Origin: Prosopocoilus inquinatus
Lineage: Eukaryota; Arthropoda; Insecta; Coleoptera; Lucanidae
Assembly: GCA_036172665.1 (NCBI GenBank)
Contig: CM069873.1
Span: forward strand, 47,834,001-47,898,000
Direction of reading: 5' to 3'
Length of the DNA: 64,000 nucleotides
Below the pieces are notes generated by a model. It was not told the origin of the DNA. It made no database searches and worked only from the letters and a program-made list of their open reading frames with translations. Below, in pieces: positions 6,719 to 59,445 of the stretch (position 1 is the stretch's first letter; each line of letters begins with the position of its first letter). A program made the translations under genes and the position numbers.

Positions 6719-7501
6719 AGTTAATGACGTCTTGTTTTTCATTCGTTTGTTAACCTTCAACCTAGTGAAATGTGTTCGTTTACGTTCACGTTATCAGGCA
6801 AAGAATCTGTGATGTCAGCTCAAATATATCCACCAATTACATTAGATAATGAAAACTCATACGTTCTCAGACTGAGTGATTTTTATTCCTTCAATGCAAT
6901 TCCCTATGTCGATGAAACGAACAATAAATTTTATATCGACAAATACGTCATAGAAGTGCCCCAAGGGGCTTATGAAATAACAGACATCGAAAACTATATA
7001 AAATCAGAATTGTTGGAAATTAATTTGGAGAGGAAACAAATTAGAAGTAACAGTAGTGGCAGTAATAGTAGTAGTATTAGACCGTCATTCCAATTCCCTG
7101 ATATGAGTAATAGAAAACCAAACTTTGTTAAGAATACTATAATTAAAAGTACACCCGATGATGATGATATAGTATTTAAAGGAAATACTAATCATAACAC
7201 ATTAAAATACGAAATAAAAAGCAACAAAATTATACATTTTGAAAAATCGAATTCTATTGATCCGCTTTTGGGATTTAACAGAAAAAAATTGGTTGCAAAT
7301 AAGAAATATACGTCCGATTTTGCCATTAATATTTCTAAAGTTAATGCGATTTGTATTGAATGTAATCTGATTAACAATTCCTATAATAACAGCAATCAAG
7401 ATCACGTGATACACATATTTTTTCCCCAGGTGCCCCCTGGTTTTCGAATAGTGGAAAAAGTAAACAACGTTATTTATCTACCAATCAGTACAAAATATAT
7501 C

Positions 7502-7513
7502 GATAAAATTGTC
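7502..7513. repeat. 12-bp target-site duplication, left copy (GATAAAATTGTC)
   Basis: Exact 12-base match to 7970-7981; the bases beyond differ on both sides. These bases encode penton-like residues, so the duplication boundary is defined by the protein frame as well. Confidence 0.93.
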
Positions 7514-7798
7514 GAACAGATAAAATAGCGACATCTTACTATCGCTTTTTGACCTGACATTGCAGTAGGGTAGACAAATTGAAGCGGGATTTGCTCCTAA
7601 TAAGTTCCCCATGCAAGGCGGCCATGCTTGCTGTCAAAGCATAATGAAAATTTTTCTAAAATTTTCATTATGCTTTGACAGCAAGCATGGCCGCCTTGCA
7701 TGGGGAACTTATTAGGAGCAAATCCCGCTTCAATTTGTCTACCCTACTGCAATGTCAGGTCAAAAAGCGATAGTAAGATGTCGCTATTTTATCTGTTC
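7514..7798. repeat. Perfect or near-perfect 285-bp palindrome
   Basis: Arms 7514-7654 and 7658-7798 are reverse complements by eye, with a 3-base centre (7655-7657). The right arm is the genuine element sequence, since it also occurs at about 16957-17077; the left arm is its inverted copy. Such 5' inversions can arise by twin priming during target-primed reverse transcription. Confidence 0.93.
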
Positions 7799-7870
7799 AT
7801 CACTCTTACATCGCAAATGCGAATAAATTGGGCAAGTCGTTTTTGTTTGCAGCGGGAATGTCGAGCTACG

Positions 7871-7917
7871 TCTCTGCTGAAGAAGCCCCAAGCAGGGCTG
7901 AAACAGCTGTCCAGAGG
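7871..7917 (+). ncRNA. Type I hammerhead ribozyme (copy A)
   Basis: All core parts are present in order. Stem I pairs TCTCTG (7871-7876) with CAGAGG (7912-7917). The conserved CTGAAGA core is 7877-7883. Stem II is AGCCC/GGGCT (7884-7888/7895-7899) with a 6-base loop. GAA is at 7900-7902. A 2-bp stem III (AC/GT) is closed by the loop AGCT, and the cleavage triplet GTC ends at 7911. The short stem III capped by a tetraloop is typical of Penelope and retrozyme hammerheads. Predicted cleavage lies after 7911. Confidence 0.88.
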
Positions 7918-7969
7918 CTGCTCGAGGTTCTCGCTGCAATCAAAAGCGATTTGCAAAAAATTTTTCTAA

Positions 7970-7981
7970 GATAAAATTGTC
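7970..7981. repeat. 12-bp target-site duplication, right copy (GATAAAATTGTC)
   Basis: Exact match to 7502-7513. The penton-like reading frame resumes from here. Confidence 0.93.
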
Positions 7982-8083
7982 ATTAAAATACTAGATCAAG
8001 ATAAAAATCTAGTTAATTTCCAAAATGAGATCAGAACGGTAAGACTTCACTTAAAAGAGTTAACGTAAGAGCTAAGAAAAAAA

Positions 8084-8230
8084 ATGGTGTTTCAATACAA
8101 TATTTTTCCGTATAAGGATATAAAAAGAAAAGTTGTAAACCAAAAGTTCAGTTTTCAACAGCATTTGAAGGAGTTAACACCTGAAAATAAGCAGTTTTTA
8201 TTATCATTAGGATTCCAGTTATTACCATAA
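8084..8230 (+). CDS. Small 48-residue ORF between penton-like and major capsid genes
   Basis: A short intact frame from ATG 8084 to TAA 8228-8230, starting MVFQYNIFPYKDIKRK and ending QFLLSLGFQLLP. It lies 16 bp after the penton-like stop and 10 bp before the capsid start on the same strand, so it fits the compact gene spacing of the element. No domain recognised; function unknown. Confidence 0.45.
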   Translation: MVFQYNIFPYKDIKRKVVNQKFSFQQHLKELTPENKQFLLSLGFQLLP

Positions 8231-8240
8231 GAAAAACAAT

Positions 8241-9449
8241 ATGAGTTTCGGTATGTAGAATATTGGTGAACACGTCTTAATAGACAATTCAATTACAAAC
8301 TGTGAATTGCACAGTCATCCACCATACGCAAACATCACTTTAAATAAATCCGACGAAATTCGAATTCCAATTCAAACGCAGGACCTTTATACATTACCAT
8401 CTCAAAGTTACCTCTATATCGAAGGAAAATTACTCGATCACGATAATAAAGTGACCAACACATTACATTTTGTAAATAATGGTATAGTTTTTCTGTTCGA
8501 TGAAATCAGATATGAACTTGGAGGATCGGTGATCGATCGAGCTCGAAATCCCGGCATAACTTCCACGATGAAAGGATACGTTTCTTTCACACATAACGAT
8601 TGCAAACGATACAACAACGCAGGCTGGAATCACTTTGAAAATCCTACAATCACCGATCAGCAAGGAAATTTTAGCGCTTGCATTCCATTGAAGATTCTAC
8701 TTGGATTTTGTGAAGATTATAAAAAAAATTTGGTGAACGTGCGACAAGAATTAGTACTTATTAGAACTTCTTCCGATCTAAACGCAACAAAACGGAGAAA
8801 AACCTAGAATTGAACTTTTAAAATTACTATTGAATATTCCTCATGTCCAAGTAGCCGACGCCGGAAAATTACAATTACTTAGATATATCGAACAAGGAAG
8901 GGATCTCGAGATTGCGTTTAGAAATTAGCAGCTACACGAACTGCCCCTCTACTGCAACAAACCATGAGACACACCTGGAACGTAAAAGCGAGTAGTCAGT
9001 TAGAGAAACCACGTTTCGTTATTGTAGGTTTTCAAACTAGTAGGAAAAATGATGCCTTAAAAAATTTCAGTCAATTTGATCATTGTAACTTGACAAACAT
9101 AAAATTATACTTAAATTCAGAAGTCTACCCTTATGATAATCTAAATTTGAATTTCGACAAACATCAGTTTGCCATTTTGTATGAAATGTACGCTCAATTT
9201 CAATATTCCTATTACTATAAATCTGCAGGCGAACCGTGTCTTAGTTTTTCAAAATTTAAAGAATTAGCTCCCCTAGTCGTTATCGATTGCAATCGACAAA
9301 ACGAAACGCTAAAGACAGGTTCCGTCGATATCAGACTTGAATTTGAAACCGACAAGAACGTTCCCGCAAATACGTGCGCTTATTGTTTAATATTGCACGA
9401 CAGATTAGTTAAATACAACCCGCTAACGAATGTGGTAAAAAAGTTCTAA
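8241..9449 (+). pseudogene. Major capsid protein (double jelly-roll type) of the Polinton-like element, broken
   Basis: From ATG 8241 the frame has a TAG at codon 6 (8256-8258), then a long block with the Polinton hexon-like pattern (ITLNKSDEIRIPIQ, LPSQSYLYIEGKL, then FDEIRYELGG). It later shows GITSTMKGY and, further on, CIPLKILLGFCEDYKK. Near 8785 a frame change leads to LNIPHVQVADAGKL, then a stop near 8927, and from about 8940 another frame runs to 9449 with MRHTWNVKASSQ, PRFVIVGFQTSRKND and DNLNLNFDKHQFAILYEMY. At least two frameshifts and two stops, so no product. In the family this is the capsid shell protein. Confidence 0.85.
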
Positions 9450-9458
9450 AAAAAAGAT

Positions 9459-9584
9459 ATGCCCATTCCAACGAAATACGTTTGTCCTAAATCTAAAGGA
9501 GAAACCGATATACCGGAACAAAAATGTATACCTTGTCTCACAGATCAATTGTTAAAAGAAATTAATGGAAAGAAACATTTGTGA
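9459..9584 (+). CDS. Small 41-residue ORF after the capsid gene
   Basis: Short intact frame starting MPIPTKYVCPKSKGE, with three Cys (one single and one CxxC-type pair in CIPCL). It follows the capsid gene closely on the same strand. The Cys spacing could bind a metal, but nothing else supports that. Unrecognised; could be chance. Confidence 0.3.
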   Translation: MPIPTKYVCPKSKGETDIPEQKCIPCLTDQLLKEINGKKHL

Positions 9585-9819
9585 TTTAGCGTATATTGAG
9601 ATACATGAATATGTAAAAATGTATATTTAGCTTTTTATTTAAAGAAATAAATAAATAAACAATTTATTTACAGCGAAAAGTTTTATCATTTTCTCTCCTG
9701 ACCTGTCCTAAGGTAAAATTACAACGTCGTTCAGTCATTGCTCGAATAAGAAAGAATTTTGCTGACATTGATTCTGAAATACCACACTCACGAATCTTAA
9801 TTACAAGCAATATTTCTTA

Positions 9820-9905
9820 TGCAAAGAAACGAACATATTATTATTACAAAATAGCAAGCGAACCGTGTTTTACTCTTTTATTTCGAAATTTAAAGATTTT
9901 TTAAT
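9820..9905 (+). pseudogene. Possible second fragment of the major capsid gene
   Basis: The translated string YYYYKIASEPCF, with the bases around it, resembles the YYYKSAGEPCLSF block of the capsid gene near 9205-9250, including the shared GCGAACCGTGT. Either a second decayed capsid copy or a partial duplication. Short match, weak. Confidence 0.3.
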
Positions 9906-10125
9906 TTAGTATATAAATCATTGATATTTACGTTTTATTTAATTGCACAACGTTTTGCAGTTTCATAAAAATACATAAACGGCAATTACAAAGAGTACAC
10001 GTAATTTATTTTCATAAGTTCTTTGATGGAAAAAAGCGTCCTTAAAAATATTTTCTTGTAATATTTACAGAAATAAATGTAGAAAATTTCATTAAAAGAA
10101 TTTAAGCAAGCTTGCACTTTGACAA

Positions 10126-10160
<35 letters not shown>

Positions 10161-12650
10161 TGCAAGTGGGTTCGATAAAAGAAGCTTTGGACTAGTTTTG
10201 CTGAATCTGCACATTTTTCAAATTTCATTGACTCGTTATACTGAACGAACACGCCGGATAAAATTACAACCCTTCTTCAAGAACTAAACGGGGGTTAGAC
10301 TTATTTTTTTTCTCAACGACCTCTTCTGGTATTATGACGTCATTGCCAACATTCTTCAGAGCTGCAAGAAGTAAAGATTTTTCTGCAACGGCCTCTTCGG
10401 CTCAAGAACTAAAGGGGTAACTTCTTCACCTCTTAAACCACTCCCCTAACTTAGGGGATGATCTTCAACGATGGTCACTTCGGATGGACACATGCCATCC
10501 GCAATTTTTTTCAAGGTCAAATTGATCCAGGATCCCGCTAGCTATACTACTCACGTGTTTGCAAAAATCAGCTAAATATCATTAGCCGATATTCAACAGT
10601 TCCCAAGATATCGATTAAATGTTGAAAATAAGTTGAAGGATTAGTGGAGTTAAATTTTCATTAGATAAAAATATTAATTGGAAATTTCTTGCTTGAACTT
10701 TAGCAATTAATAAATTTCAGTTTTAAGAACTCCTTGTAGTGAACTTACGTTCTCGGATTACTTATAAATGCCAATACTTTAATTGAAATTTAATAAATCT
10801 AATTATACCCTTTCCTTTTTTTTCATTTTTTTTCTTTTTCAGAAGTTGGATTATACTATAGCTATTTAATTGTGTCAAAATATATAGGGCGTTACATTTA
10901 ATTTTCTTGTAAAATTTAAACTTTTAAATTTCAATTGTTTCTATACAAACATACGGCCGTGCGCACCTTAAGTGCTACAATTTGTCATTTCTGTGAGCCT
11001 TGTAGTATAAGGTCTTAGAGTGAAGTTTGCCTGCAGTTGGTGCATTTTAGTTGCCCATGACTGTACATCAAAAATGTTACGTTTACTTATGGGGAATATT
11101 CTACACGATATTTATAATTAATTAGGTAAATATTCGCCGCTGATTATGAATAAAATACTTCTACATTTTAGCTCTTTAATTCAATGGAAGAGCTATAGAT
11201 TTCGATTTAGGGCTACAGTTGTAAATTTCTAAGAGCTTTATCGAAATTGGTGTATTCCATTTAAAAAAATATAAGTTTGGTAGATAACTCACTTATGGAA
11301 CAAGCTGTACATGTGAAAATAATTTTCTGATATAGAGCTAATTATAGACAATAACTTTTGTATAACATTTTTTGACATTTTCTTTTATAATAAATAGTTA
11401 AGATGCTGTTGAAGAAATCAATACTAATGACACACCCTGTATATTCTAGTGATACTATTCTATTTTCAATTACTGCAACTGTTTGTAATATGTATATTTC
11501 CAAGACCAAAAAATAAGAGAAAGAAGAATTATGATTTTTGTCCATTTACGCCTATCATTCGACGCACTGTGCGACGGTACCTTTATGTTTACTCTAATTT
11601 TGAGCGATCATTTGGGTGCGGGGCGCTGAGTGACGTCATCGTCTGTCAATTATGTCCTGTTAAAGATGTTCTACTCCCCCCCCCCCCCACGAGTTGTGTC
11701 GGCCCTTTTGGCCGTCGTGACAACTTTTGTACTGTTGCGTACTTGGTTTGAGTTTTTTGCTTCTTTGTGACACTGATTACGTAAGGAGTATAGATTACAT
11801 TCTTTTTTGCTGTTAACTGTTGAGGGCTCCTTCAGAGCTGTAACTATTTCGGAATTTGCTCAGTTTTGAATGATTTTATTTTGTAGAAAAATTAAAAAAT
11901 TTTGAAATTTATATTTTATATATATATAGAGGGTGTTTAGTTATTGAATGGACAAATTGAAACTGTAGATGCGGGTTACCAAATGAAGTATAAAAGTCCT
12001 ACACATACTGACCTTTCTGCCCATTTTTGAAAATTTTCGAAAAGTACCAATTGTTTGGAACTGCTGAAGCATTTATCACACAAGCGTCCATTAAAGTAAA
12101 TATTCCATATGCCCGAACGCATGAATCAGCGCGAATCTATGCTAACGCGTGCAAGCCCATCGCTTTTAATAGCTCGGATAAAAGGTACTGCAAAAATAGA
12201 ACTCCAGTTAAGGCATACTTGAAGCACGTAAGAGCCATGATTTTTCCGTGAACTCGTAATTTGTTTGTAAATAAATTAACTTGTAAATATTTATTTCAAC
12301 ATTCTTTGATGTTTCATCACTCGTAGAATAATAAAACTTTATTAGACACAATTGTAAGTGAGAAAAATGTTAGAATTTCATTCTTTGTACGTACATTTAT
12401 TCTGACGTGCACACTTTAAAATCGGTTGAGGCACTGACCTTTCATCATTTGCCTTGAAAGATGTAAGCAAAAAAAGAAACACCATTAGCGGAATTCATGG
12501 TTTCTGCCCGGGCGGACGATGTTTGCAGTATTGGAGACGTTAATCAGTGGTTCCCAAATTTTTTTTTTTTTCGATTTTTGTATCAATTTTTTTCTCGAAA
12601 ATAAAAGCTGTAGCGTCCCGGATTATCAAGTCTTTTCTACTCTATATAGT
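9906..12650. other. AT-rich DNA, no gene recognised
   Basis: Besides the CA repeat, a C-run near 11675 and the string ACACACCCTGTAT near 11435 (typical of mariner-type MITE ends), I see no gene or well-bounded element. Short open frames here have no recognisable motif. Confidence 0.5.
10133..10160. repeat. (CA)n microsatellite
   Basis: An uninterrupted CA run of about 13 units preceded by CGCG. Ordinary simple repeat. Confidence 0.95.
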
Positions 12651-12654
12651 GTCC

Positions 12655-12735
12655 CCAACATGCTGTGTAAAGTTATCCAGTCAATTACCTAACATCCTGT
12701 ATTTATATTTTGCGTGTTAAAACTGTATTGGATGT
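12655..12735 (+). repeat. MITE flank shared with 17170-17252
   Basis: The stretch with AACATGCTGTGTAAAG and CAGTCAATTACCTAACATCC recurs in inverted orientation at 17170-17252 next to the other MITE copy, so the duplicated unit is larger than the MITE itself. Confidence 0.8.
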
Positions 12736-13232
12736 TAGTGCTGTAAAAGTAACGAAAAAGTTTGTACTCGCATGTATTCGTTACCTTAGATTTCGGTACT
12801 CGTTACAAAATATTCGTTATTCGTTACGTTCGTTACTGTAATACAATTAAATAATCAGGTAATGTGCATCAATATAATTTTCAACTTATAGACGTAATAA
12901 CTAATAAGATTACTTTTATAATAATTTTGTTTATTAAAAAATATTCAAAATACAATTACTACTTACTAAAAATGCATACATAAGCCGTGGACGGTACGTA
13001 CGGGTATAAACAGTTGACAAACAATCTATTAAAACGTAAACAACTTATAACTGAAATTACCAAATTAATAACTGATCGGAAGCTCGCACTTTTTCCTGTC
13101 GAAACATGAACGAAATCATACGCTATTGTCATACGAGTAACGAAATGTTTTAACAAGTAACGAATCAGTACGTCGAGTCTCATATTATATCCGTTACTCA
13201 GTAACGAATACAGACGGTTTGCACCAGCACTA
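12736..13232 (+). mobile_element. hAT-type MITE with TAGTGCTG ends
   Basis: Starts TAGTGCTG and ends CAGCACTA, rich in GTTACTCGTTACG-like subterminal repeats, with no coding region. Flanks are TTGGATGT on the left and TTGGATTG on the right, an imperfect 8-bp duplication. A truncated copy with the same left flank lies inverted at 16707-17169 and carries the hammerhead insert. This copy provides the uninterrupted site (12816-12827) for that insert. Confidence 0.7.
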
Positions 13233-13443
13233 TTGGATTGTAAGACTACGGTTCAAATCAAATGCTAAATTTGAATCAATATTTATTTCTTTTGTTTATT
13301 TGTCACAGAATAGCAATGTTTTATGACTAACTAGCTGAATTATGTAAATGAACCTAATATCGCTAATGAACACTGTTCTTTGTATAAGTGTACTTCCATA
13401 AGGTTGATCTCCACCTTCTGCAGGGCCAACTTAGAAAATAGCT

Positions 13444-14180
13444 ATCATTAGCATACACCGACTAGCCGACTACGATAACCTTTAACCCGGTGTAGGTAGT
13501 GCAATGGGAACCAAGGGAAAACGCATGAGACTCCCTCCTCACAGTCCCCTGGTGGGAAACACACCCAATAGGTTTCAGGAATATAATCATAAACTTGATA
13601 ATCAATCTGGCATTCCCTGGCTAGGATAACCATTAGCCCGCTGTAGGTGGTGCAATGGGAACCAAGGGAAAACGCACGAGGTTCGCTCCTCACAGTCTAC
13701 TGGTGGAAAACGCAACCAGTAGGTTTCAGGAATCTAATCATAAACTTGAAAAACAAACTAGCATTCTCCGGCTAGAATAACCATAGCCCGCTGTAGGTAG
13801 TGCAATGGAACCAAGGCAAAACGCACGAGGTTCCCTCCTCATAGTCTACTGGGGGAAAACGCACCCAGTAGGTTTCAGGAATCTAATCATAAACTTGTAA
13901 AACAAACTAGCATTCCCCGGCTAGGATAACCATAGCCCGCTGTAGGTAGTGCAATGGAACCAAGTTAAAACGCACGAGGTTCCCTCCTCACAGTCTACTG
14001 GGCGAAAACGCACCCAGTAGGTTTCAGGAATCTAATCATAAACTTGTAAAACAAACTAGCATTCCCCGGCTAGGATAACCTTAGCCCGCTGTAGGTAGTG
14101 CAATGGAACCAAGGGAAAACGCACGAGGTTCCCTCCTCACAGTCTACTGGGGGAAAACGCACCCAGTAGGTTTCAGGAAT
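13444..14180. repeat. Tandem satellite, about five copies of a 150-bp unit
   Basis: The motif GATAACC...CCGCTGTAGGTAGTGCAATGG recurs at 13474, 13625, 13775, 13925 and 14074, spaced about 150 bp. Each unit contains a short hairpin around CTACTGGG...CCCAGTAG and a GGTTTCAGGAAT block. The first unit is the most diverged and the array ends inside a unit at about 14180. No hammerhead core found in it. Confidence 0.92.
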
Positions 14181-15240
14181 GCCACGCAACTGCCCGCCCG
14201 CATAACATGGACTAGCAAACAATTAACTGGTATCAGTCAACGACTGCACCGACTTTTTAACCATCTGATCGATAACTGGTTACCAGCTGTTCATTCAGAG
14301 ATATTAACATTGTAAAATCGTTAGACTATATGTAAATAATAAACCCCGCACTAACCTGGATTCTAATTTCTCGACCGGTGCACTTCACAAGCTCACACCA
14401 CCGATGCTAACATTACACTGACTTTCGATCCCTTACTTTTATTTTCCCTTATCCTGCCACTTACATAACTGACAATTTATAACGAGTTTTGGGCTAAATT
14501 TTCTTGAGCGGTGAATCATTTTAAGACAGGGACAATGTCGCTCTAATTGCACAACGAATGTACTGAACAGTTATTTTTGATTGAGTAATCTCAACACCGA
14601 AAATATTTAGTGTAAACAAAAGAAAATAAACTTTAACGGAGAGAAACTTTATGTAACTCCACAGGATGTTGATTTATTTGTTCGGTGTAAGCCGACGCAT
14701 GAGTACTCCCGTAGAGGCGCTTTCTTTGCCCACGTTTTGAGTCTTGTGTTAACACTTATTTAAGGCATGATCGTTTGATCGTCCCGTATTCGGGCGAATG
14801 TGTATATATTTCTAACGGGAAAAATTGTTTGAAGTTGATTGCTGGGTGGCACCTTATCTAGTAACAACTTTGATGTTTCCACGACCGTCTCTACTGAGTG
14901 GGCAAAGTTACGTAACCGTATTCAATAGCAAGGTCCTCGATGGTCCGACCGACTCGGTACGTTATGGTAAGTTACGGATTGGCGCAGGCCCTCCTCCTTT
15001 ACCGTTTTGGGTCCATCAGCACTGAGCCCTCCCTAGTTGTCACTTGTGTCAAAGAGGTAGTTGCAGGTGTGACAAGATACACCAATGGAAGTGAATTTAA
15101 AGTTACAAAAAAACAATAGAGGTAATTTTGAAGTTACATATCAACAACTTTCAGGTAGCTTAATGTGTCTTGTAGTATTAACAAAACCCAAAATCGCATG
15201 TAGCGTTAGTTTTTTTAAGTAAATTTAATAACTCTTATAA
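14181..15240. other. No gene recognised
   Basis: Less AT-rich than its surroundings in places (14660-15030). Open frames here show no known motif. Could be decayed transposon sequence following the satellite. Confidence 0.4.
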
Positions 15241-15570
15241 TGAAACACGCTGAAATTGTGCAAAAAGAGTACTTGCATAGTAACGGCTTGAAGCTTGTAA
15301 AGGATACCGCAGAACTAGAACGTTTTATTGATGTCTATTGGGCAGGTAATTGGATTGATAGGTCATGGTTTTTGCTTCAAACTCTCTGGCTCTGTGGTTT
15401 CCTGAAAAAGTAACAAACAGAAAACGGTAGTCTGAAACCAAGTTCAGAAACTTGAAAAGAAGCTATTTGTTTGCGAGATTTACTTTTAGAATTAACAAGG
15501 AAGTCAAATTATGTCACATTATTTAATGATAGTCAAAGTGCACAGAAGTTGTCTGTAAAACCTTTAACAC
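15241..15570 (+). pseudogene. Copia (Ty1) RNase H relic
   Basis: In shifting frames the stretch reads GLKLVKDTAELERFIDVYWA (a copia RNase H block), then a TGF..KLS-like region with the string SGSVV lost by frame changes, and finally LFNDSQSAQKLSVKP, the conserved end of copia RNase H. Several stops and frameshifts; only this C-terminal part of a pol polyprotein is recognisable. Plausible terminal repeat sequence follows but is not proven. Confidence 0.65.
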
Positions 15571-16375
15571 ATTTTTATTAGGGAAATTTAGTGTCTGTTC
15601 GTTTGTTGCACTAGTACGCACTCAAAATATTTGTATTGTTACGTTTCTAGGGTTTAAATTTATTTATTTAAACGAACAAAACACTCTGTAAAAACTTAAC
15701 CGTAATTTATTAATGCTTACAAACTAATTTATTTGTAACAATTTATTTACACACTAAAATCTAACTTCGACGGTCGCTGTTAGAATTCGACTGACTCCTG
15801 AGTCAACTCCGGCCGATTTTATATCCTTTGCTGCCGTCCCGAATTTTCCAAGCTGGAAAATTCGAGTTTGTTCGATGGTGGCGTGACGGCCAATGACGCA
15901 TAACGTTCCGACTTCTTGACGCCTTCAGTTTGACGTAGTAAGCCGGGTGGCGCGCCACAGTATCTTGTTCTATCCTCAAGCATCAATACGAGATGACGAT
16001 ACTTTAAGTGTGCACTAACAGACCTAATTGCTAATATGGCATTGTTAAACTGCAATATTTACAGACAGCTCAAATGCTCGCTGGTATTTGCCCTCTTGTA
16101 AGTTTACATCAATCTTGTTTATTAGTTATATCAAATTTAAAATAATCTGGCAGTAACGTTAAAACAACGTTATCAATTTTTATACGGAATTTAAAAGAAT
16201 GATAAACTACTCAAAATAATTAATGGGTCAAACTTTCTTGCGCTGGCTAAGCTAAAACAAAATGAGTAAAAATCTTGGTCGGCAAGTCAATTATTGCTTG
16301 AACCATCTCTGTTACTCAGAAAAATCTCAGATATCATAGAACCTCTTTATTATGAGAGAGAGATAGTTGGTGATG
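15571..16375. other. Non-coding, possibly solo-LTR sequence
   Basis: Begins near TGTTACGTTTCTAGGG (15638), a start often seen in LTRs, and has a GC-richer middle (15770-15960). I cannot identify the other end, so the LTR idea is only a suggestion. No gene. Confidence 0.25.
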
Positions 16376-16389
16376 TTGGTAAAAATAAT
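16376..16389. repeat. 14-bp target duplication of the Penelope-like element, left copy
   Basis: TTGGTAAAAATAAT, an exact match to 19991-20004. The left inverted repeat of the element begins directly after it; on the right about 37 bases lie between the inverted repeat and the second copy. Confidence 0.75.
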
Positions 16390-16390
16390 G

Positions 16391-16706
16391 AAAAACGTGG
16401 TAGTTGATCGGGTTTTTAGAACAAAAAAAATATTCTAAATCATTCAGTTGACCAGTTTCGGTTTTATTTTAAAGCCTTCCTCAGATCCTAAAAGGTATAC
16501 AGTGAGATTCTATCAACTAAGAATTAAAAACGATTTTTACCTCTGATTAACACAAAACGATAAACTACAAACCATCGTATGATTTGGGGTGAAATTTACG
16601 CATTAAAAGCCGCTGTAAAAAAGAAAAAACAACAGTCAGTCAGACTGGTAGATACAAAAGTGTAAACACTTACGGTTCCATTAAAACATGTTTAAAACAA
16701 AGTTGT
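16391..16706 (-). repeat. Penelope-like terminal repeat, left (inverted)
   Basis: Reverse complement of 19637-19954 with scattered differences. Contains a decayed hammerhead on the minus strand at 16446-16490. The match stops at AAAGTT (16706), where the MITE fragment starts. Confidence 0.88.
16446..16490 (-). ncRNA. Decayed hammerhead motif in the left Penelope repeat
   Basis: On the minus strand CTGAGGA (16484-16478), a loosely paired stem II, GAAAC (16460-16456) and GTC (16452-16450) are in order, but stem I pairing is poor and stem II has a mismatch. Homologous to the better motif at 19855-19897. Confidence 0.5.
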
Positions 16707-16721
16707 ATTACAGTAACGAAC

Positions 16722-16733
16722 GTAACGAATAAC
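16722..16733. repeat. 12-bp target-site duplication of copy B, left (GTAACGAATAAC)
   Basis: Exact match to 17078-17089. The intact MITE has this sequence once (12816-12827, other strand). Confidence 0.93.
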
Positions 16734-17077
16734 TTAGAAAAATTTTTGTGCAAATCGTTTTTGATTGCAGTGAAAACGTCGAGCAGCCTCTGGACAGCAA
16801 TTGCGAATAAATTGGGCAAGTCGTTTTTGGTCTGCAGTGGGAATGTCGAGCTACGTCTCTGCTGACGAAGCCTCAAGCAGGGCTGAAACAGCTGTCCAGA
16901 GGCTGCTCGAGGTTTTCACTGCAATCAAAAACGATTTGCACAAAAATTTTTCTAAATCTTTCGTTATGCTTTGACAGCAAGCATGGCAGCCTTATTAGGA
17001 GCAAATCCCGCTTCAATTTGTCTATCCTACTACAATGTCAGGTCAAAAAGCGATAGTATGATGTCGCTATTTTATCT
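16734..17077 (+). mobile_element. Retrozyme-like hammerhead element, copy B
   Basis: A 344-bp insert in a hAT MITE, with exact 12-bp duplications. Its first about 62 bp are the inverted copy of 16891-16956; the forward part (about 16795-17077) contains the hammerhead half first and then the segment that in copy A precedes it. Thus the order of the two halves is reversed relative to copy A while orientation is kept, a circular permutation. Differs from copy A at scattered sites and lacks about 13 bp around 17000 that copy A has, so the two are independent insertions of a diverged family. Confidence 0.87.
16856..16902 (+). ncRNA. Type I hammerhead ribozyme (copy B)
   Basis: Stem I TCTCTG/CAGAGG (16856-16861/16897-16902), core CTGACGA (16862-16868), stem II AGCCT/GGGCT (16869-16873/16880-16884, last pair a T-G wobble), GAA (16885-16887), 2-bp stem III with AGCT loop, GTC ending at 16896. 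Compared with copy A the variable core base and one stem II base differ while pairing is kept. Confidence 0.88.
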
Positions 17078-17089
17078 GTAACGAATAAC
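17078..17089. repeat. 12-bp target-site duplication of copy B, right (GTAACGAATAAC)
   Basis: Exact match to 16722-16733. Confidence 0.93.
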
Positions 17090-17243
17090 GAATATTTTGC
17101 AACGAGTACCGAAATCTAAAGTAACGAATACATGCGGGTACAAACTTTTTCGTTACTTTTACAGCACTAACATCCAATACAGTTTCAACACGCAGAATAT
17201 AAATACAGGATGTTAGGTAATTGACTGGATACCTTTACACAGC

Positions 17244-19446
17244 ATGTTGACAAACTTACTGCAATGTAGGTACAAAAATGTCTACCCTAAACACATATCG
17301 CAATCAGTAAAAGGGATCTACAGTCTCCAAATCAGTCCACATCCGTTTACACACAAAGTCAACAAGCTTGTCGACGTTACTTATTATGAAATTTCAATGA
17401 TCCAACTTAACTTAAGTAATATCAGAACTTATTTGAGACATACGATCCCTCTACATATTTGTCAGTCTTTTGAACGCTTTACATTTGATAACTATCAAAA
17501 ACACTTTAATATTACTAAGAAACAACACATCAATAAAATTAATACTTTACTTTCTAATAGTAAAAATATAACCTAACTGTTAAGTGCCAACCTTAACTAT
17601 TATTAAAGATATTGAACACTGCATTCAGAATCAGCCCGAGGATGTTGATAAAGATTCTCTAAGGTGTACTTGCACCAACATACTAACTTCCTACAATCCC
17701 ACACTCACTCTTCCCTTACAGAGGTCGACAGGTGGTTTAACCAATCTAGATCTTTTCTTAAAGAACATCATAACATCCTTTTAACCAGAGCAGATAAAGG
17801 TGGTGCCAGTGTGATTTTGTTGAAAGAAGACTACGTTGAACGAATGAATCATATACTACAGGACAACAATGTTTACCAACAGGTCAAAAGACCCTACTTC
17901 TGGTTTTCAAACAAAAAACAACAAAATTGTCCGACAACTTCTAAAAGAAGAAAAAATTGACAGCGCTACAGCAAAACAGCTCACCACATACACTGCTATC
18001 CCCCGAAAATTTATGGCCTTCCCAAAATCCATAAACAGAACCATCCACTTCGTCCCATAGTATCTTGTATTGGTGCTCCCACCTTTCAATTGTCAAAATT
18101 TATTACAAAAATTCTTTCGAACTTAAATCAGAACTTTAATTTCAACATCAAAAATTCTTTTACCTTTGTGCAAAAAATTAAAAACAACAATTCCTGATAA
18201 CTATATTTTAATTTCGTTAGATGTAACTTCATTATTCACCAACATTTCAAAACAATTGGTACTCAAAATTCAGAATGATGATTGGGACCAAATACAATCA
18301 CACAACCATACCTAAGGCAGTTTTTATCAACATGGTCGAGTTCTTGTTTGACAGCAGCTATTTTATTTTTGACAATAAATTTTACAGACAAATTTTTGGT
18401 ACCGCCATAGGCAATCCAGCTTCCCCCATTTTAGCTAACATAGTTATGAACAAACTGCTCAATTCCGTTGTACACAACTTACCGTTTCCTTTCCCCTTTT
18501 TATATTGTTATGTCGATGATATCGTTACTAGCATTCCTAATGATTCTGTGGATTTGATTTTGTCAAAGTTTAATGAGTTTTGTGAAGAATTAAAATTTAC
18601 AATTGAAATAGAAAATAATAAAAAACTTCCCTTCTTGGATGTGTTGCTTGAGAGATGTGACAATGGTAAGATTATCACTGATTGGTTCATAAAGCCTACC
18701 CATGCTGGCAGAATAATTAATTACCATTCTGTACACCCTTTAAACCAAAAACTGGCAGTTTTGAAGTCCTTAAAACACAAGATCATGGAGCTTTCTGATC
18801 CAAATTTGTGGAAAAAGAATTTTACTATCATTCAAAAACTGGCTATACAAAATGGCTATCCAAAAAAACTCATTGCCCATCTGTTGACAGTTGTGACAGA
18901 CCCAATATTTCACAATTAGAAACAATAGAGTCTCAAAATCAAGCCAAATATTTCAAAATTCCTTTTTTGCCTAACTTATCTTATAACATTGCCAGAATCT
19001 TAAACAATAATCAAACAAAAATAGCTCGTTATTCCTTAAAATCAACCAACAGCTTAAGTACAAAACTTAAATCAAAAACCCCTTTACTTGAACAATGCAA
19101 CGTTGTTTATAAAATAGATTGTATGGGGTGTGATTCCTCTTATATTGGCCAAACTAAACATAAACTATGCCATATAATGAGAAATCATAAATATGATTGT
19201 AATCCATCTCAACAATCAAAATCCGAAAAAACTGCTCTATATACACGTCATTTTTCCACAGGACATACGTTTGATTTCGATAATGTTAAGATTTTAGATT
19301 ATGAACCGGCCTTTACAAAAAGATTAATCTCTGAAATGATTCATATAAAGAATAATAAAAATTCTATAAATTTAAGAACGGATACACAAAATTTAAGTAT
19401 CATTTACCATAACCTTATCAAATATCACACTGGCAATCGTTTGTAA
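17244..19446 (+). pseudogene. Penelope-like reverse transcriptase with GIY-YIG endonuclease, frameshifted
   Basis: Several frames together show the Penelope order. The N-terminal region is 17244-17576. The ADKGGASVILLKEDYV block lies near 17795, then YGLPKIHKQNHPLRPIVSC near 18005. Motif A (ILISLDVTSLFTNI) is near 18205, FGTAIGNPASPILANI at 18390-18440, and the catalytic YVDD near 18510. FLDVLLER and FIKPTHAGRIINYHS follow. After a frame change near 18900 the GIY-YIG endonuclease has NVVYKIDCMGC, SSYIGQTKHKL, and a Cys/His-containing stretch to 19446. In the family this enzyme copies RNA at a nicked target. At least four frame changes or stops, so inactive; the motifs themselves are well preserved. 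Confidence 0.88.
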
Positions 19447-19636
19447 GTGAATTTTCTTAGCTTGGCCAATACTTGGGGAATTTTACTCTAACCTGTAAGT
19501 TGGTAAACTTGTCGCGTTGCTGAGTAAAAACCAGCTTCAATCTGACATTTGGCGTACGTTTCCTAACGTTACTTTTAATTTTGTTTTATCCTTAATCATT
19601 TATTGTTAATTGTTTAAAAAACATCCCATATTGCTG

Positions 19637-19954
19637 AACTTTGCTTTAAACATGTTTTAATGTAACCGTAAGTGTTTACATTTTTGTGTCTACCAGTCTT
19701 AGACTGACTGTTGTTTTTTCTTTTTTACAGCGGCTTTTAATGCGTAAATTTTACCCCAAATCGAACGATGGTTTATAGTTTATCGTTTTGTGTTCATCAG
19801 AGGTAAAAATCGTTTTTAATTCTTAGTTGATAGAATCTCACTGTATACCTTTTAGGCTCTGAGGAAGGTTTTAAAATAAAACCGAAACTGGTCAGCTGAA
19901 TGATTTAGAATCATTTTTTTTGTCCTAAAAACCCGATCAACTACCACGTTTTTT
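19637..19954 (+). repeat. Penelope-like terminal repeat, right
   Basis: Inverted partner of 16391-16706. Includes ACCGTAAGTGTTTAC, CAGCGGCTTTTAATGCG and the hammerhead motif at 19855-19897. Confidence 0.88.
19855..19897 (+). ncRNA. Hammerhead ribozyme motif in the right Penelope repeat
   Basis: Stem I GGCT/AGCT (19855-19858/19894-19897, one G-T wobble), core CTGAGGA (19859-19865), stem II GGTTTT/AAAACC with a 5-base loop, GAA at 19884-19886, a 2-bp stem III (AC/GT) with only a 2-base loop, GTC ending at 19893. One unpaired A precedes stem II. The very short stem III is typical of Penelope hammerheads, which may need dimers to cut well. Confidence 0.7.
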
Positions 19955-19990
19955 TCAAAATTTAATAACAGGACGCCAATTTCAAATTTA

Positions 19991-20004
19991 TTGGTAAAAA
20001 TAAT
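19991..20004. repeat. 14-bp target duplication of the Penelope-like element, right copy
   Basis: TTGGTAAAAATAAT, exact match to 16376-16389. Confidence 0.75.
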
Positions 20005-20085
20005 TGTCGTATTCGCTAAGATTCAATTTACAATTTCTTTTCTTTAATCTGATATAACACTTCTACTGTCATGCAGCGCAGCGTG

Positions 20086-20919
20086 GTAGCTCAACAAGGC
20101 GTACGAAACCATTTGACACCAACAGAAGTCAATGTCCGACGGTCTGTAATAGGAAGCTTTTAAAGCGACACCAGAATATCGGAAAAAATTTCCGATAAAA
20201 CAGTGAGGAGCCGAACTTGAGAAGCTAACCTGAGGGCCAGACGTCCGGCGAAAATAATGCGTTTAACCAGAAATCAGCCAAAAGCGCGAATGCAATTCAA
20301 TTAAGAACACAATAATTAGCAAATACGCCATTGGAGAAACGTTTTCTTTACTGACAAGTCTAGGTTTGCAGTATGTTCAAATTATGGACCAGTTCGAGTA
20401 TGGTGACTACTAGGGGAATGGTTTCTTTCCAAAATAACTCAAGAAAGAGTCCGGTTTGGTGTGTGTGTTTCTGTAATGATCTACGGCGGTATTTCGTTCC
20501 AACAACAAACTGATATTTTTATCATAAGAAATGAAGCTGTAACTGGACGATATTATATTGATGAGGTCCTCCAGGTCCTAGTACAACCTCATTCACATGC
20601 CGTAGTTGAGAATTTTATTTTAATGCAAGACAGTGCCCGGACACATAATGCGAGAATCATTACTGAGTATCTGCAAGAACAAAATATCGCAACTTTGCCA
20701 TGGCCAGCGTGCAGTATTGACGTTAATGCCTTTGAACATCTTTGGAACGAGTTAGGTAGATGAGTCTGAAATCGGTATAACTCACCTCTTACAATCTGGG
20801 AGCTAGAAAATACTACTTCGGAGCAAATTCCACAAGACACCATTCGAAGATTAACACGAAATATGTCAAGACGCTGTGCAGCTTTAATTGAAGGCAGAAA
20901 ACGCCCAAGTCGTTATTAA
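20086..20919 (+). pseudogene. Tc1-like transposase (DD34E), broken
   Basis: Decayed N-terminal helix-turn-helix region (QGVRNHLTPTEVNVRRS near 20095) with stops. The catalytic core is recognisable: FTDKSRFAV (first Asp) near 20350, VMIYGGIS near 20475, QDSARTHNA (second Asp) near 20630, and the Glu in AFEHLWNELGR near 20735. The second Asp and Glu are separated by 34 residues, the Tc1 spacing. The C-terminal block IRRLTRNMSRRCAALIEGR follows a stop at 20761 and ends near 20919. Several stops and frame changes; terminal repeats not identified. Confidence 0.85.
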
Positions 20920-52406: not shown

Positions 52407-55400
52407 CTACCTATCAGGGTGATCAGGTTTGAGATGTTCAGTGTTCCAAGTACCAAGAAGTATGTTACCATCAAGGTCCTTAAGTTCGTAAGTGTCCGTG
52501 GACACACGTCGATGAACAAGGAAGAGCCCAACAAACTTGTCGGCCAGCTTGGCCGCGAAATGCTTGGAAGCATCGGACAACACAAAATTTTTACGCCACA
52601 CCCGCTGTGCGGGTTGGTAAACTACCTTTCGCCTACGAAGATCATAACAACCCTTGGCCTTCTCATAGGCTTTCTGCAACCTTCCTTGAACTTCCTTATA
52701 AAGAACCGCAAACTTGCCGGTACGAGATTGATTGATCCGTCGGATCTTGAGGAATAACTTCCAGGAGTTCATTCTTTTCGGGGTTAGGATCCGGGGTCAA
52801 ACTACCCTTAAGACACATTTCACGTCCAAAATTCAGGAAATAAGGAGTCACACCAGTAACCTCATGACGCGCCGTTCTCAAAGCACAAGCAACCTTAGAC
52901 AAGAAGAGATCCCACTTACGATGATCTTCCGCCACATAAGCAGTCAACATGGACTTAATCACGCGGTTCACGCGTTCGACAGGGTTTGCTTTTGGATGAT
53001 AGTACGTTGTGTATGCTGAGCGTACCTGATAGGCCGTCAAGAGTTTTTGATAATCCTTAGACTTGGATTGGATTGGACTCCATTATCTGAAATAATGGTG
53101 CGAGGTACACCAAAGACGAGAAAGATGTTTTCCTCGATATGCTGGACGATCTTAGGGGCAGTGGCCTTTCGAAGGGGGAAACATAGGGTGAACTTACCGA
53201 AGCAATCCGTTGCCACCAAAATGTATTGGTACCCTCGAGAAGATCTAGGCAGGGGACCAACAAGATCGACACTAATGACCTCCCAAGGACGTGTGATTTT
53301 CGAGTGACCTGCCATTAGGCCAGCAGGAGCTCTTTGCTCAGGTTTGGTACGAAGACATGTCTGACGCCGGTGGATATACTTTACCACATCAGCATGCATT
53401 TTAGGCCAATAGTACGTTTGAATAATCCTATTAAAGGTCTTATAGATTCCCAGATGACCACTAGTTGGGGAATCGTGTAATTCCTGAAGAATTTTCAACC
53501 GAGATTCCTTCGGGACAACGGGCTTCCATTGAGGTTCTTCCTCAGACATACGATAGTAAGTATTCGTAACAAACTTGTACATTACTTTTCCCTCCACTCT
53601 GAAATTTGGGAATTTTCCGGGAGTCGACTGAATTTTTTTCAGAAGATTTAGGTACCAACTATCTCTGATATTTTCATAATCGATGGAATCTATCACAGGA
53701 ACAGCACGTGAAAGCATGTCAGGGACAACGTGATCTTTCCCTTTTCGATGCACAACACTGAAGTCATACTGTTGGAGGCGCACGGCCCATCGACACAAAC
53801 GACCAGAGGGATTCTGAAGTCGGTTCAACCATAATAGGGAATGCTGATCGATAATAACAGTGAAGTGTGAACCTTCAACATAAGGCCTAAGTTTTTCAAT
53901 TGCCCATAACATTGCAAGAAGTTCTTTTTCCGTGGTGGAATAGTTGTGTTCGGTACGGGTTAAAGAACGACTCAAATAACAAATGACCTTCTCACCTTCC
54001 TCCTGTTGTTGAGTGAGTACAGCTCCGACACCATAGTCTGACGCATCGGTTTGAATGACGAATTCCTTAGAAAAATCAGGACACGATAAGACTGGAGCAG
54101 AAACCAGATGCTCACGAATCTTTTCCCAAGCGTCATCGCAGGTCTCATCCCAATGATGCTTAGAATTTTTCTTAAGGAGATTAGTCAGAGGAGCAATAAT
54201 GGTTGAAAAGCCGTGAATAAATCTGCGATACCATGAGGCAGTTCCTATTAGACGACGGACTTCCCTGACAGTTGTTGGTTTTGGCATCTGTAAGATGGAT
54301 TGAACTTTTTCAGGGTCGACATGGAGTCCGTGTCGATCTACCACGTAGCCTAGGTATTTCAGTTCGCTCAAGCAGAAATTACACTTGTCCTGATTCAGGG
54401 TTAGTCCCGCCTCAGTCAGGCGTTTATGGACTTCGGAAAGTACTTCGAGATGTTTGTCGAAGGTTTGTGTGACGATAATAATATCGTCCAGGTACACGAA
54501 TACATGAGGTTTGAGATCAGCTCCGATCACACAATCTATGAACCTTTGCCATGTTGCAGGAGAATTATGCAACCCAAACGGCATTCGACGGAACTGATAC
54601 AACCCGCGATTCGGAACGGCAAAAGCAGTGTACTGACGAGAACTTTCAGCCACAGGGATTTGCCAATATGCAGACTTGATGTCTAGGGATGACAGATATT
54701 TAGCATCCTTTAGCTTATCCAAGGTGTTGGACACATATGGAAGAGGATATGCGTCTTTCGTGGTTACCTGGTTCAACTTCCGGTAGTCTACGCAGAAGCG
54801 GACTGAACCATCCTTTTTAGGAACCAGTAGGATCGGTGAAGACCAAGCACTCTTAGATTTTTCAACAATACCACATTCCAACATATCGTCAAGTTCCTTG
54901 TTCACCATCGTTTGCCTTGCCGGGGAAATGGGGTAATAACGTTGTTTTATGGGTGGGCTATCAGTATGAATAACGTGTTCCACCAATTTAGTACAACCCA
55001 ATTCACGACCTTTTGAATTGGCAAACAGCTGATTCGTCAAACTACCTAGTTGTTCTTGTTGGGAATCAGTCAGATGACACCAGGAGGTGACATGTTCAAG
55101 AGATGCGACAGATTCATGACCAAACGACCATTCTCCAGAGCGTAAGTCAGGAACGATGCCCATCAGCTTCCAGAAATCAGCTCCCAAAATTAGTGAATGA
55201 GGCAATTCAGGGGCAACGAGTATGTCGATGATCTTAACTCGATCGCGAAGTTGGATAGGGGTAGTCACATTACCAGGACTACCCCAGGGCTGTCCATTTG
55301 CAACAGTACACGAAGTCACGTGCTTTGTGAATGGCAGGTTTAGGGTTTGAAGAATTTCCCATCCTGTCTTCCCAACAATTGTGCGAGATGCACCGGAATC

Positions 55401-55583
55401 GAGGAGACCCAAGAAAGGAATTCCTAAGATGGACACAGATAAGTAGGGTCGCTCATCATTCTGCGCATGAGCAAGGACAAAGTTGAGTACGGGCTGAATT
55501 GTCAAGACTTCGATCGGTTTTGAAACTCGGAAACAACGCACTAGCCGATCATCTACCGCGTCGGTCGGAAGTTTTTTGAACAC
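52407..55583 (-). pseudogene. Gypsy pol: protease, reverse transcriptase, RNase H, integrase
   Basis: The main frame (55583-53037, 848 codons) has the aspartic protease LLDSGASRTIVG (about residue 60), RT with VRFCVDYRKLNQ, then FVYLDDIII (catalytic Asp pair, about 365), RNase H with QTDASDYGVGAV (about 513), the integrase zinc domain (SGHLGIYKTF) and the core SVDLVGPLPRSSRGYQY to SDNG (about 770-830). A frameshift near 53040 and another near 52720 split the integrase, whose C-terminal part continues in 53040-52696 and 52772-52407 (WRKNFVLSDASKHFAAKL). In the zinc domain the first Cys of the CxxC pair is Arg (RRQTC). Overlaps the end of gag by about 30 bp in another frame, as in many gypsy elements. 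Confidence 0.92.
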
Positions 55584-56844
55584 TTTGGACAGGTCTTGGT
55601 GGTGACATTAGGACGTCCACATTGATAACAATGTCTCCTGAGAGGTTCAGGGCATTCGCGAGATAAATGTCCTACGTTCTGGCAATTCCAGCACTTCAAA
55701 GACTTACTCGATTTGGGTGGTTCTACTTTACATTCCGCAACCAAGGGCGTACTAGTCTGAACATAAGCTAAATCGGGTTCTAGGGATGCATTCTTACGAG
55801 GGGGAGGAGTATAAGCCTCTACAGCGGATTTTCGCGCTTCCAGCTGCCTACCCAATTTTAATAAATGAGCTACTGATGTCACCTCCACTATACCTAATTG
55901 GCGTTGGTAAAAAGGGGCGATATTGTTCAGCAAAATTTTTATTTGTGCTGTTTCATTAACAGGAATGCTCAACCGGTTAAATAAATTTAACATGACCGAA
56001 ATGTAAATACCCATTGACTCATCGGGGCCTTGTGTTCGTTTTTTAATCTCCTCGAAAAGTCGATCGTCATAATTGTGAGGTTGGAATTCATCCCGAAGAT
56101 TTTGGACGAGGGTGGACCAGTCACTACAAAATTTTTAGTTCGCTCGAAACCAAACCAGGGCCTTGTCTCTAAAAAGGTCAGACGCTGAGGCAAAAAGAGT
56201 GGCTTCCGAAACATTACATGACACCTGTAATTCACTCACGCGTTCCAGAAAAGCGCTAAGCGACAAGATCTTATTATTTCCGTTATATGTCAAACCCCAC
56301 TTAGAAACAGGTACCGATTTGATTTCAGGTAAAGTAACAGGGTTAAAGGGTCATTTTGAAATTGGTCCGCAATGGCTGTCAGGTCAAGTAAAGGTGATAC
56401 TGGGACCTTAACGATTTCCGTCTCCTTTGTCGTCCAATTCAATGCCATTTGCTCAAAGTCGCACGCGAGCTCGTTCAATATTCGTAAGATGTCTTTACGG
56501 TGCTGCGTCTCGTCATTATTCATTGACTGAGAGCGTTGGGCTCATCCGATGGCATGTGCCAATTTAGTAGAGATTTTATCGATAATGCAAACAGCAGTCG
56601 AATCAGGGAGAGAATCTATTAAACAGCGAATTTCGCTAATTTTTTCCCGTAGGGCGATTACGTCTTCGTCAAAAGTCACATCGTAAGTCGGTAAAGGGAG
56701 GCGTAAATCTCTTTCTAACCGAAGTTGTCGCCTTAAGTTCGCACGTTTTTTCGCAACCGTACCTTCGGTTTGTACACCCCTTAACAATAATTCATAATTT
56801 AACTCCTCAGAGTTAAGGCGGTCTGGTAACAATTTACAGTCCAT
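55553..56844 (-). pseudogene. Gypsy gag with two zinc knuckles, frameshifted
   Basis: Starts at ATG 56844 (MDCKLLPDRLNSEELNYELL); frames change near 56525, 56330 and 56135, where the string ALVWFRAN is followed by a stop. The last frame (56014-55553) holds the capsid C-terminal region and the nucleocapsid with CWNCQNVGHLSREC (a CCHC knuckle) and CYQCGRPNVTTKTC followed by PKC. In the family Gag packages the RNA. Non-functional as it stands. Confidence 0.85.
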
Positions 56845-56968
56845 CGTAAATACACAATAAACAACAAACGAAAAATATCTTGGATGAGTATCCTATGTCA
56901 ACAGATCAAAACGGAATAAACGCAATAAAATCCAACCAAAACTGGCCCCACGTGTCAGGCGCCAAACT

Positions 56969-58290
56969 TGCTACCTACCTGTACAGGTATCGCATGTGAT
57001 CGCCGTGACAGACGTTTCGGCGTCGCCGGCCAGCCCCAGTGGGATAGGGTGGGTAAAACAAAAAAATATATATACTAGCTCTGATCAAACAAACAATAAA
57101 ACAAAATAAAGGCGCCACTTAATTTCTTTTGGGCTGAAGGGAACCGCGGGGAAAAATTAAGAAAAACCACGTCTCATCCAAGATATGTATTCAATACAGT
57201 TTTATTCACAAAGAAACAAATAATAAATTTAACATTATTTTTGCGTCAAAATCGCCAAGAACAAAATATCTAAACTCTGATTAAAGCCGCAACCGCGCTT
57301 AAAATATAAACACCACAATCTTCAAATCAAATAACCGGAACGGTGCGCAAAAAAGAAATAGCAAACAGCAACTTCAAAATGTATCACTACGCAGTATGAA
57401 GCTACATGCCGTTTTCCGGTAGCAATGTACGTAAAATGAAATAATAAACAGGCCAACCTTATCCCTGCGCGTGTCGCACGTCGGTCGGAGTGTTGATCAG
57501 CTCCAAGGTGTCCGCCGGGACTCACGGGACCGTGCCGAAGCGGGGAATGGCCAACAAAATCAGAAGCTCTTGCCGAAAGCGGCACAGAGGTGAGGGAACC
57601 CCTTAACTAAAGCCTGTTAGGAAGAAAGATACGCGATAGAAAGTGTCGAAGCGATACAGAACAACCAACGGCTCACCTGTTCGCAGAACTGCTTGGAAGG
57701 GAACAGGCGTAGACAATACGAAAGTATTAATTCTCTTCACGTGCAACGGGTTAAAGTCAAGAAAAGCTGTTGTTGCCTCCACCCAACATCAATTTTTGGG
57801 CGAAAACGTACACAAAGGAAAGCACATCAGCACGAAACGTGTTGTTACACCGAGAAGAACGAGAACACTTCTGTTCTGACAAAATCGCTTCGCACCGGCG
57901 AACGGAAAGAGATGGGGTTAAAACAAGAAGAGATAGGGTGCCTCCGCCAACCGTGACAGAATCTTACGTCAACGAGGACCAATGGGCTTAAAGACCAGGG
58001 TTCAATTTCTGTGTAGCTAACGTGAGAAAGAAATCGCTGATTTCACAATATGATGCAATAATGCGTAAATCAAAAAGGCTAAATAAAGAATCTATGCGAC
58101 CGGAGAATTTAACTTTCGCAACCCAAACTTTTTCTTATCCTAACTTTTACAGGAAAACGAATAACACGGGGAAATACTTTGAAAGCAAATCGACGGAGCG
58201 CAAAGAATTCGCCGGGCGGTCTGTGAAAATAATTTCACGGGGAACAATATACAGGGTGATTCGGGGTCGGACAGAAATTGAACCGTAACA
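56969..58290 (-). repeat. Gypsy long terminal repeat (5' LTR in element orientation), 1,322 bp
   Basis: Partner of 49026-50347. In the element's direction it starts TGTTACGGTTC and ends GTAGGTAGCA, followed by AGTTTGGCGCC (primer site). The element promoter should lie here, but no motif is clear enough to place it. Confidence 0.92.
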
Positions 58291-58294
58291 AGAC
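58291..58294. repeat. Gypsy target-site duplication, right (AGAC)
   Basis: One mismatch to AAAC at 49022-49025. Confidence 0.6.
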
Positions 58295-59280: not shown

Positions 59281-59445
59281 AAAAATTCTCCACCTTTTTT
59301 CTGTTGATGTTTGTTTATTTTTTTTAAGTTCAACTTTTTTTTACATCAGTTCAAACATTCTAGATTTGATATAACGATTTATAACAAGTGAGTTCAATTT
59401 ACCAACTTTAGAGCCATATTTGAAAAGACAAATATTTACATTTCT
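59281..59445. other. Region downstream of the minus-strand BEL/Pao pol
   Basis: Should contain the polypurine tract and 3' LTR start of that element (GGGGGAAG at 59451-59444 on the minus strand is a candidate tract), but the other LTR is outside the window, so no boundary can be set. Confidence 0.35.

Follow-up and report, generated by a model that had tools for sequence, protein, structure and literature searches.

Metazoan non-LTR retrozymes are non-coding elements of low G+C content and without LTRs, composed of tandem units of ~170-400 nt with a type I hammerhead, and Penelope-like elements (PLEs) have been proposed as their helper (Cervera and de la Pena 2020, PMC7229834). Their target duplications, when present, exceed 4 bp; in salamander families stem III of the hammerhead is weak, and such hammerheads cleave better as dimers (PMC7229834). 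They were published as head-to-tail tandems, and the word "inverted" is absent from the main text of that report (PMC7229834). Plant LTR retrozymes are non-autonomous, hammerhead-bearing elements with a circular RNA, a type III hammerhead, LTRs with a primer-binding site, and 4-bp duplications (PMC4918200, PMC7761336).

PLEs encode a reverse transcriptase and a GIY-YIG endonuclease, and are characterized by head-to-head ends, target duplications, A/T-rich targets and hammerheads, with two start sites giving rise to ends with and without a tail (PMC3846280, PMC11167929). In rotifer Penelope elements the tail is found on one of the inverted ends, and self-priming on an antisense template has been proposed for their head-to-head repeats (PMC3846280). 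Both DNA strands are cut and extended by the PLE protein of Anolis, and two internal start sites bound an optional tail; in vitro, start-site use did not differ between the strands and hammerhead cleavage was not needed (PMC11167929). The available sections of that report contain no explicit link of the two start sites to the two strands. The route by which circular hammerhead RNAs re-enter animal genomes, and the reason why PLEs have head-to-head ends of which one is tailed, are questions left open by these studies (PMC7229834, PMC3846280, PMC11167929).

The element described here was found as a 456-bp insert at positions 7514-7969 (copy 1) of a 64,000-nt stretch of contig C5 of the Prosopocoilus inquinatus genome, referred to below as the window. 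Its type I hammerhead, low G+C content, target duplication longer than 4 bp, weak stem III, and tandem non-coding units of 310-312 nt without LTR or primer-binding site (within a range of ~150-450 bp) are those of a metazoan non-LTR retrozyme. With plant LTR retrozymes it shares its non-autonomous nature, its hammerhead and, probably, a circular RNA; the absence of an LTR, a 12-bp duplication and the type I hammerhead set it apart from them. Like PLEs, it has head-to-head ends, a target duplication, an A/T-rich target, a hammerhead, and two sites at which its ends lie, but unlike them it encodes nothing. In contrast to the published metazoan retrozymes, its family consists of head-to-head blocks with two paired end sites and the same template in both blocks. 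The element is thus of a known kind, while the head-to-head architecture and the rule governing its ends appear to be new: searches of the open-access literature found no earlier description of the plan with paired ends, which subscription papers (e.g., one of 2014 on hammerheads in PLEs) may nonetheless contain. On the sequence evidence presented below, the insert is likely to be a metazoan non-LTR retrozyme, its circular RNA having served as template for PLE machinery that primed reverse transcription on both strands of a staggered cut, with one start site for each strand.

A fold-back insert in a capsid-type gene

Copy 1 lies inside a virus-like capsid-type gene. The features of the locus, in which A and B denote the two end sites of the repeated unit, are as follows:

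6770..7513, plus strand: capsid-type gene up to the insertion (left piece), 248 aa (open reading frame, homolog search)
7502..7513, plus strand: left copy of the 12-bp target-site duplication, GATAAAATTGTC (exact repeat)
7514..7646, minus strand: copy 1 antisense block, ending on the outside at site B (unit position 139; exact mapping)
7647..7969, plus strand: copy 1 sense block, just over one 310-nt unit long, ending on the outside at site A (unit position 310; exact mapping)
7862..7924, plus strand: type I hammerhead (core, fold, conservation; Rfam HH9 below cut-off)
7862-7876/7912-7924, plus strand: hammerhead stem I (read from sequence)
7877-7883, plus strand: hammerhead core CUGAAGA (read from sequence)
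7884-7899, plus strand: hammerhead stem II (read from sequence)
7900-7903, plus strand: hammerhead GAAA (read from sequence)
7970..7981, plus strand: right copy of the 12-bp target-site duplication, identical to the left (exact repeat)
7982..8068, plus strand: remainder of the capsid-type gene (right piece), in frame with the left piece and closed by a stop (frame reading, homolog search)

The frame opening at 6770 encounters a stop codon at 7526-7528, within the insert, and continues in the same frame at 7982-8068 until its stop. Both this interruption and an exact 12-bp target duplication had been claimed in a first-pass annotation of the DNA, and both were borne out. When the two pieces of the gene were searched separately, the left matched 84 and the right 80 of the 120 listed homologs, 76 of which were matched by both. 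In all 25 printed homologs the right piece directly succeeds the left with zero residues missing; in P0001, for example, the left piece extends up to residue 224 and residue 2 of the right piece is found at 226. Two gene copies elsewhere in the genome (L093 and L094) contain a single 12-mer with contiguous flanks, providing genomic empty sites. The named relatives of the capsid piece come from the beetle Callosobruchus, and double-jelly-roll capsid frames lie just downstream of the interrupted gene. The label "penton-like" earlier given to this gene finds no confirmation in any Pfam family. No reverse-transcriptase frame is present in the 456 bp of the insert.

Positions 7514-7654 are an exact inverted copy of 7658-7798, making the insert a fold-back and contradicting its first description as devoid of terminal inverted repeats. 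The position of the inner junction between the two blocks is ambiguous by 8 nt of microhomology.

The sense block carries the hammerhead, classified as type I because stem I is the open stem. Cleavage is predicted from the sequence to occur after C7911. Stem III is formed by the palindrome ACAGCUGU, with two pairs and an AGCU loop. The local fold lies 3.8 standard deviations below dinucleotide shuffles, and the core is kept in 31 of 34 distinct full-length variants detected by BLAST. The Rfam model HH9 scores 16.3 bits against a cut-off of 52; at the gathering score Rfam gave zero matches in the whole window, and low-threshold matches were mostly to microRNA and other hairpin models that fit the fold-back. 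Identification of the hammerhead rests on its core, fold and conservation. The core and stems had been recognized correctly at 7871-7917, an interval that omits the outer part of stem I.

Copies in the genome and their end sites

A second copy, 86-94% identical to copy 1 across pieces, interrupts a PLE in the same window:

16722..16733, plus strand: left copy of the 12-bp duplication GTAACGAATAAC flanking copy 2 (repeat), the right copy being at 17078-17089
16734..16796, minus strand: antisense block of copy 2, with its outer (left) end at site A (exact mapping)
16797..17077, plus strand: sense block of copy 2, with hammerhead and outer end at site B (exact mapping)

The 650-Mb host genome was searched with the sense part of copy 1 (195 matches, the best 40 of 1412 candidates scored) and with copy 2 (90 matches, the best 40 of 1158 candidates scored). 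In total, 54 loci were examined: 20 from a first retrieval, two in the window, and 32 from further retrieval. Nine that run off the retrieved stretch (L052, L053, L061, L065, L067, L070, L071, L073 and L080) were dropped, as were L051, a duplicate of copy 2, and L066, which has no antisense block, leaving 43 loci. L001-L030 coincide with the places of copy 1 and L031-L040 and were counted only there. The loci are best-scoring matches rather than a random sample, and their ends were refined using the duplications. The family is arranged as arrays of a ~310-nt unit (310 nt in a young subfamily, 311-312 nt in an older one) with an antisense block first, then a junction, then a sense block. Individual blocks are between 63 and 2555 nt long, and more than one unit is present in a block at 35 of the 40 loci with duplications. 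Units of the young subfamily differ between loci by a mean of 1.3 changes (64 units).

Exact mapping placed all 86 outer ends of the 43 loci on one of two unit sites, A (unit 305-311/1-7, with one end at 18) or B (unit 129-141), where only 12 of the 86 inner ends are found. The sites are paired: 25 loci have A on the left and B on the right, 17 have the reverse, one is A/A, and none is B/B. One A and one B end thus occur in 42 of 43 loci, and in 40 of 40 among those flanked by duplications of 10 bp or more. Exact duplications of at least 10 bp flank 40 of the 43 loci, the exceptions being L048, L060 and L072, and are mostly 12-14 bp long (36/43); in control pairings of flanks from different loci, two of 421 reach 10 bp and none is longer. 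These family data support the earlier reading of copy 1, in which a retrozyme-like element bears a hammerhead and lies in a cleanly duplicated target. That reading missed the fold-back, the tandem arrays and the copy within the PLE, and hence the likely mechanism. The condition that would have refuted it, other copies lacking fixed boundaries or duplications, was mostly not borne out: boundaries are fixed in all 43 loci and duplications are present at 40, while some older neighboring copies are truncated or have a single block for which no duplication was found.

The target was analyzed in 39 of the 40 loci with duplications, oriented by the A end (L054 was left out). The A+T content of the duplications is 82%. 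The three positions ahead of them are A, A and, in 18/39, C; the first position behind them is T in 16 and G in 12 of 38, and the next two are T in 29 and 25. The target site is therefore nearly two-fold symmetric, the symmetry being partial (C 18/39, G 12/38). When a site of near symmetry is cut with its strands staggered by 12-14 nt, two like 3' ends result; the RNA sites used at them nonetheless differ. A hairpin shared by the start sites was considered and dropped, the 35-nt folding energies at A and B being unremarkable. At one locus (L075, C1:55634700-55636100) the target is a perfect palindrome that includes the duplication and its flanks.

Copies that depart from the end rule were also found. 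L048 (C7:19073500-19079500) is the only two-block A/A copy among the 43 mapped and has no target duplication; an older two-block A/A copy at L034:6663-7412 has no true duplication. Four single-block copies, L066 (sense only), two older ones in L036 and one in L047, gave no duplication, and an older copy in L044 has its antisense (left) end at unit ~86, off both A and B. Twelve older pieces lying by chance in the retrieved stretches were assessed afterwards, outside the 43: four are A/B, one A/A, one has an off-site end, three are sense-only, two are fragments and one runs off. The duplications of the four A/B pieces are 14 bp exact, 9 bp exact, and 11 bp with one mismatch, none being found for the fourth. 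The end rule is strict for intact copies with duplications, and eroded or single-block copies, which may represent single-primed insertions or remnants, also exist.

Inner junctions and the template of the two blocks

Among the 40 loci with duplications, no two have a common inner junction within 3 nt. At 35 of the 43 loci the blocks meet without extra nucleotides, with a mean microhomology of 2.7 nt as compared to 0.7 nt for random joins; the other eight junctions carry 1-7 extra nucleotides. A junction apparently common to L031 and L049 in BLAST blocks was separated by exact mapping. Outside the loci with duplications, L060 (C2:41486050-41486900), which has none, has an inner junction identical to that of copy 2; the flanks of the two differ, and comparison of these flanks revealed no link.

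Palindromes are difficult to assemble, and the duplicate of this region at C5:39.437 Mb has a 1.6-kb deletion beginning in the fold-back, as might be expected if post-insertion rearrangement or misassembly of ordinary head-to-tail arrays had generated the inverted blocks. Such an origin is extremely improbable given that the same plan recurs in dozens of unrelated places, with duplications at both ends and different junctions, and that the short copy 1 is contained within 456 bp. Alternatively, the whole antisense-sense array could be a mobile unit with fixed ends, moving in linear form by retro- or DNA transposition. The end rule would then be trivial, the fixed and paired B and A ends resembling ordinary termini, and the junction common to L060 and copy 2 would be expected. 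This model predicts that junctions are inherited, whereas the loci with duplications have none in common; together with the variation in block length and the lack of a duplication at L060, this leaves the linear element quite unlikely.

The two blocks of a locus were compared at informative positions, where they agree in 303 of 305 cases (29 loci) and 104 of 111 cases (14 loci), exceeding all 1000 shuffles in each subfamily. Variants that mark the loci L044, L045, L046 and L050 are present in every full unit of both blocks; two of these recur, each in one other locus, and most other variants are confined to a single unit. Within a locus, sense and antisense units differ by 0.88, as compared to 1.55 after shuffling, and one of 2000 shuffles was as low. 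Inner ends lie within 5 nt of the hammerhead cleavage site in four of 80 cases (2.8 expected), and the absence of a pile-up there is as expected for uncut circles. The independent junctions, the variants common to both blocks and the blocks longer than one unit together fit the synthesis of two cDNAs from one circular template sequence per event, although two molecules of the same sequence would also be compatible.

Identical sequence in both blocks, as well as head-to-head repeats, would also result if a cDNA primed on a single strand snapped back and copied itself into an inverted block, a mechanism close to the self-priming proposed for rotifer Penelope, which in that proposal acts on an antisense template (PMC3846280). 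Copy 1 indeed turns at a nearly palindromic stretch, with an overlap of 8 nt. Snap-back predicts that the two inner positions are neighbors, but they lie within 30 nt of each other in 10 of 40 loci, against 7.9 by chance, and it offers no reason for the invariable use, in loci with duplications, of the other fixed site at the second outer end. We consider it very unlikely. The intact copies are explained by priming on both strands, each strand using a single site. The head-to-head plan, the single end site on each side, the duplications, the independence of the junctions and the variants common to both blocks are read from the sequence; we infer the circle, the helper enzyme and its dimeric state, and a single RNA serving both strands.

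Penelope-like elements and a model for insertion

The PLE that carries copy 2 comprises the following features:

16390..19990, plus strand: PLE, flanked by the 14-bp duplication TTGGTAAAAATAAT at 16376-16389 and 19991-20004
16391-16704, minus strand: antisense copy of the PLE 3' end, on the left side of the element
18227..18919, plus strand: reverse-transcriptase frame (RVT_1, E 1.3e-7)
18799..19446, plus strand: endonuclease-end frame (relatives carry PF01541 GIY-YIG or PF26215)

Its reverse transcriptase, a GIY-YIG-type end recognized through relatives, an inverted pseudo-LTR and a target duplication identify it as a PLE. Both frames are broken, and a Pfam search of the endonuclease-end frame itself did not match GIY-YIG. 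Named relatives of the PLE piece come from the beetle Coccinella and from ants. The left end of the element corresponds to 19953, and the right end extends 36-37 nt further.

Searching the genome with the 3' region of this PLE yielded 46 matches (the best 40 of 802 candidates scored), whose far ends fall into two groups at query positions 387-412 and 425-441 (45/46). Pairs with facing arms were taken as those with both arms among the matches listed (six, one of them with arms 5.5 kb apart), together with the window PLE; all seven have one end from each group. The five pairs retrieved whole have duplications of 12-14 bp, two of them with one mismatch (L083 and L087), and no duplication was found for the far-apart pair L090/L091. 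Immediately after the PLE end in L091 (C7:6643350-6643950) lies retrozyme-like antisense sequence.

Two-strand priming could in principle employ another helper, such as a LINE, or a linear multimer as template: the helper is itself deduced, and linear multimeric transcripts of an array would presumably hold identical units as well. The PLE pairs of the same genome, however, obey the same two-site rule with 12-14-bp duplications, and the inner ends of the retrozyme blocks are not concentrated at the cleavage site. These variants of the mechanism are therefore doubtful.

In the preferred model, a circular template copied by PLE machinery, transcripts of tandem genomic units would be cleaved by their hammerheads into ~310-nt monomers, which, by analogy with the family, would be closed into circles. 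A reverse transcriptase/endonuclease of the Penelope type, probably dimeric at the nearly two-fold symmetric A/T-rich site, would cut the DNA strands 12-14 bp apart and generate two 3' ends. From each 3' end a separate reverse transcript would be primed on the circle, at site A (~305-310) for one end and at site B (~132-141) for the other, and either transcript might travel around the template more than once. The two cDNAs would then join head to head, mostly through 1-5 nt of microhomology, and fill-in would produce the target duplication.

A circular RNA with two start sites, bound by a dimeric Penelope-type enzyme in which each subunit primes its own strand at its own site, could constitute the general mode of insertion of PLEs and the retrozymes dependent on them, explaining both the head-to-head ends and the tail at one end; on this broader proposal we are evenly divided. 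The cutting and extension of both strands by the Anolis enzyme, its two start sites, and the tail on one of the inverted ends in rotifers speak for the model with one site per strand; the lack of a strand difference in the start site of the Anolis enzyme in vitro, and its independence of hammerhead cleavage there, count against it. The ~40 young insertions in one genome can be summarized simply: each strand has one start site, the template sequence is the same, and the cut is staggered at a near-symmetric site. This rule renders both the return of hammerhead circles to the genome and the end structure of PLEs directly testable with purified PLE protein and a circular template.

The region of the window containing a polinton and the PLE (7425-20189) has a near-identical duplicate 8.4 Mb away, at C5:39.437-39.449 Mb (L051, L088, L089 and L092), in which the deletion mentioned above spans 7673 to 9313. 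A jump of the PLE with copy 2 as a passenger was considered as the origin of the identical copy at C5:39.445 Mb and rejected: the flanks beyond the PLE also match (249/251 and 251/252), and this identity indicates a segmental duplication. Other broken elements occupy 1529-2902 and 53037-63964 of the window: a DUF659/hAT-like frame, a Gypsy-type polyprotein and a BEL/Pao element.
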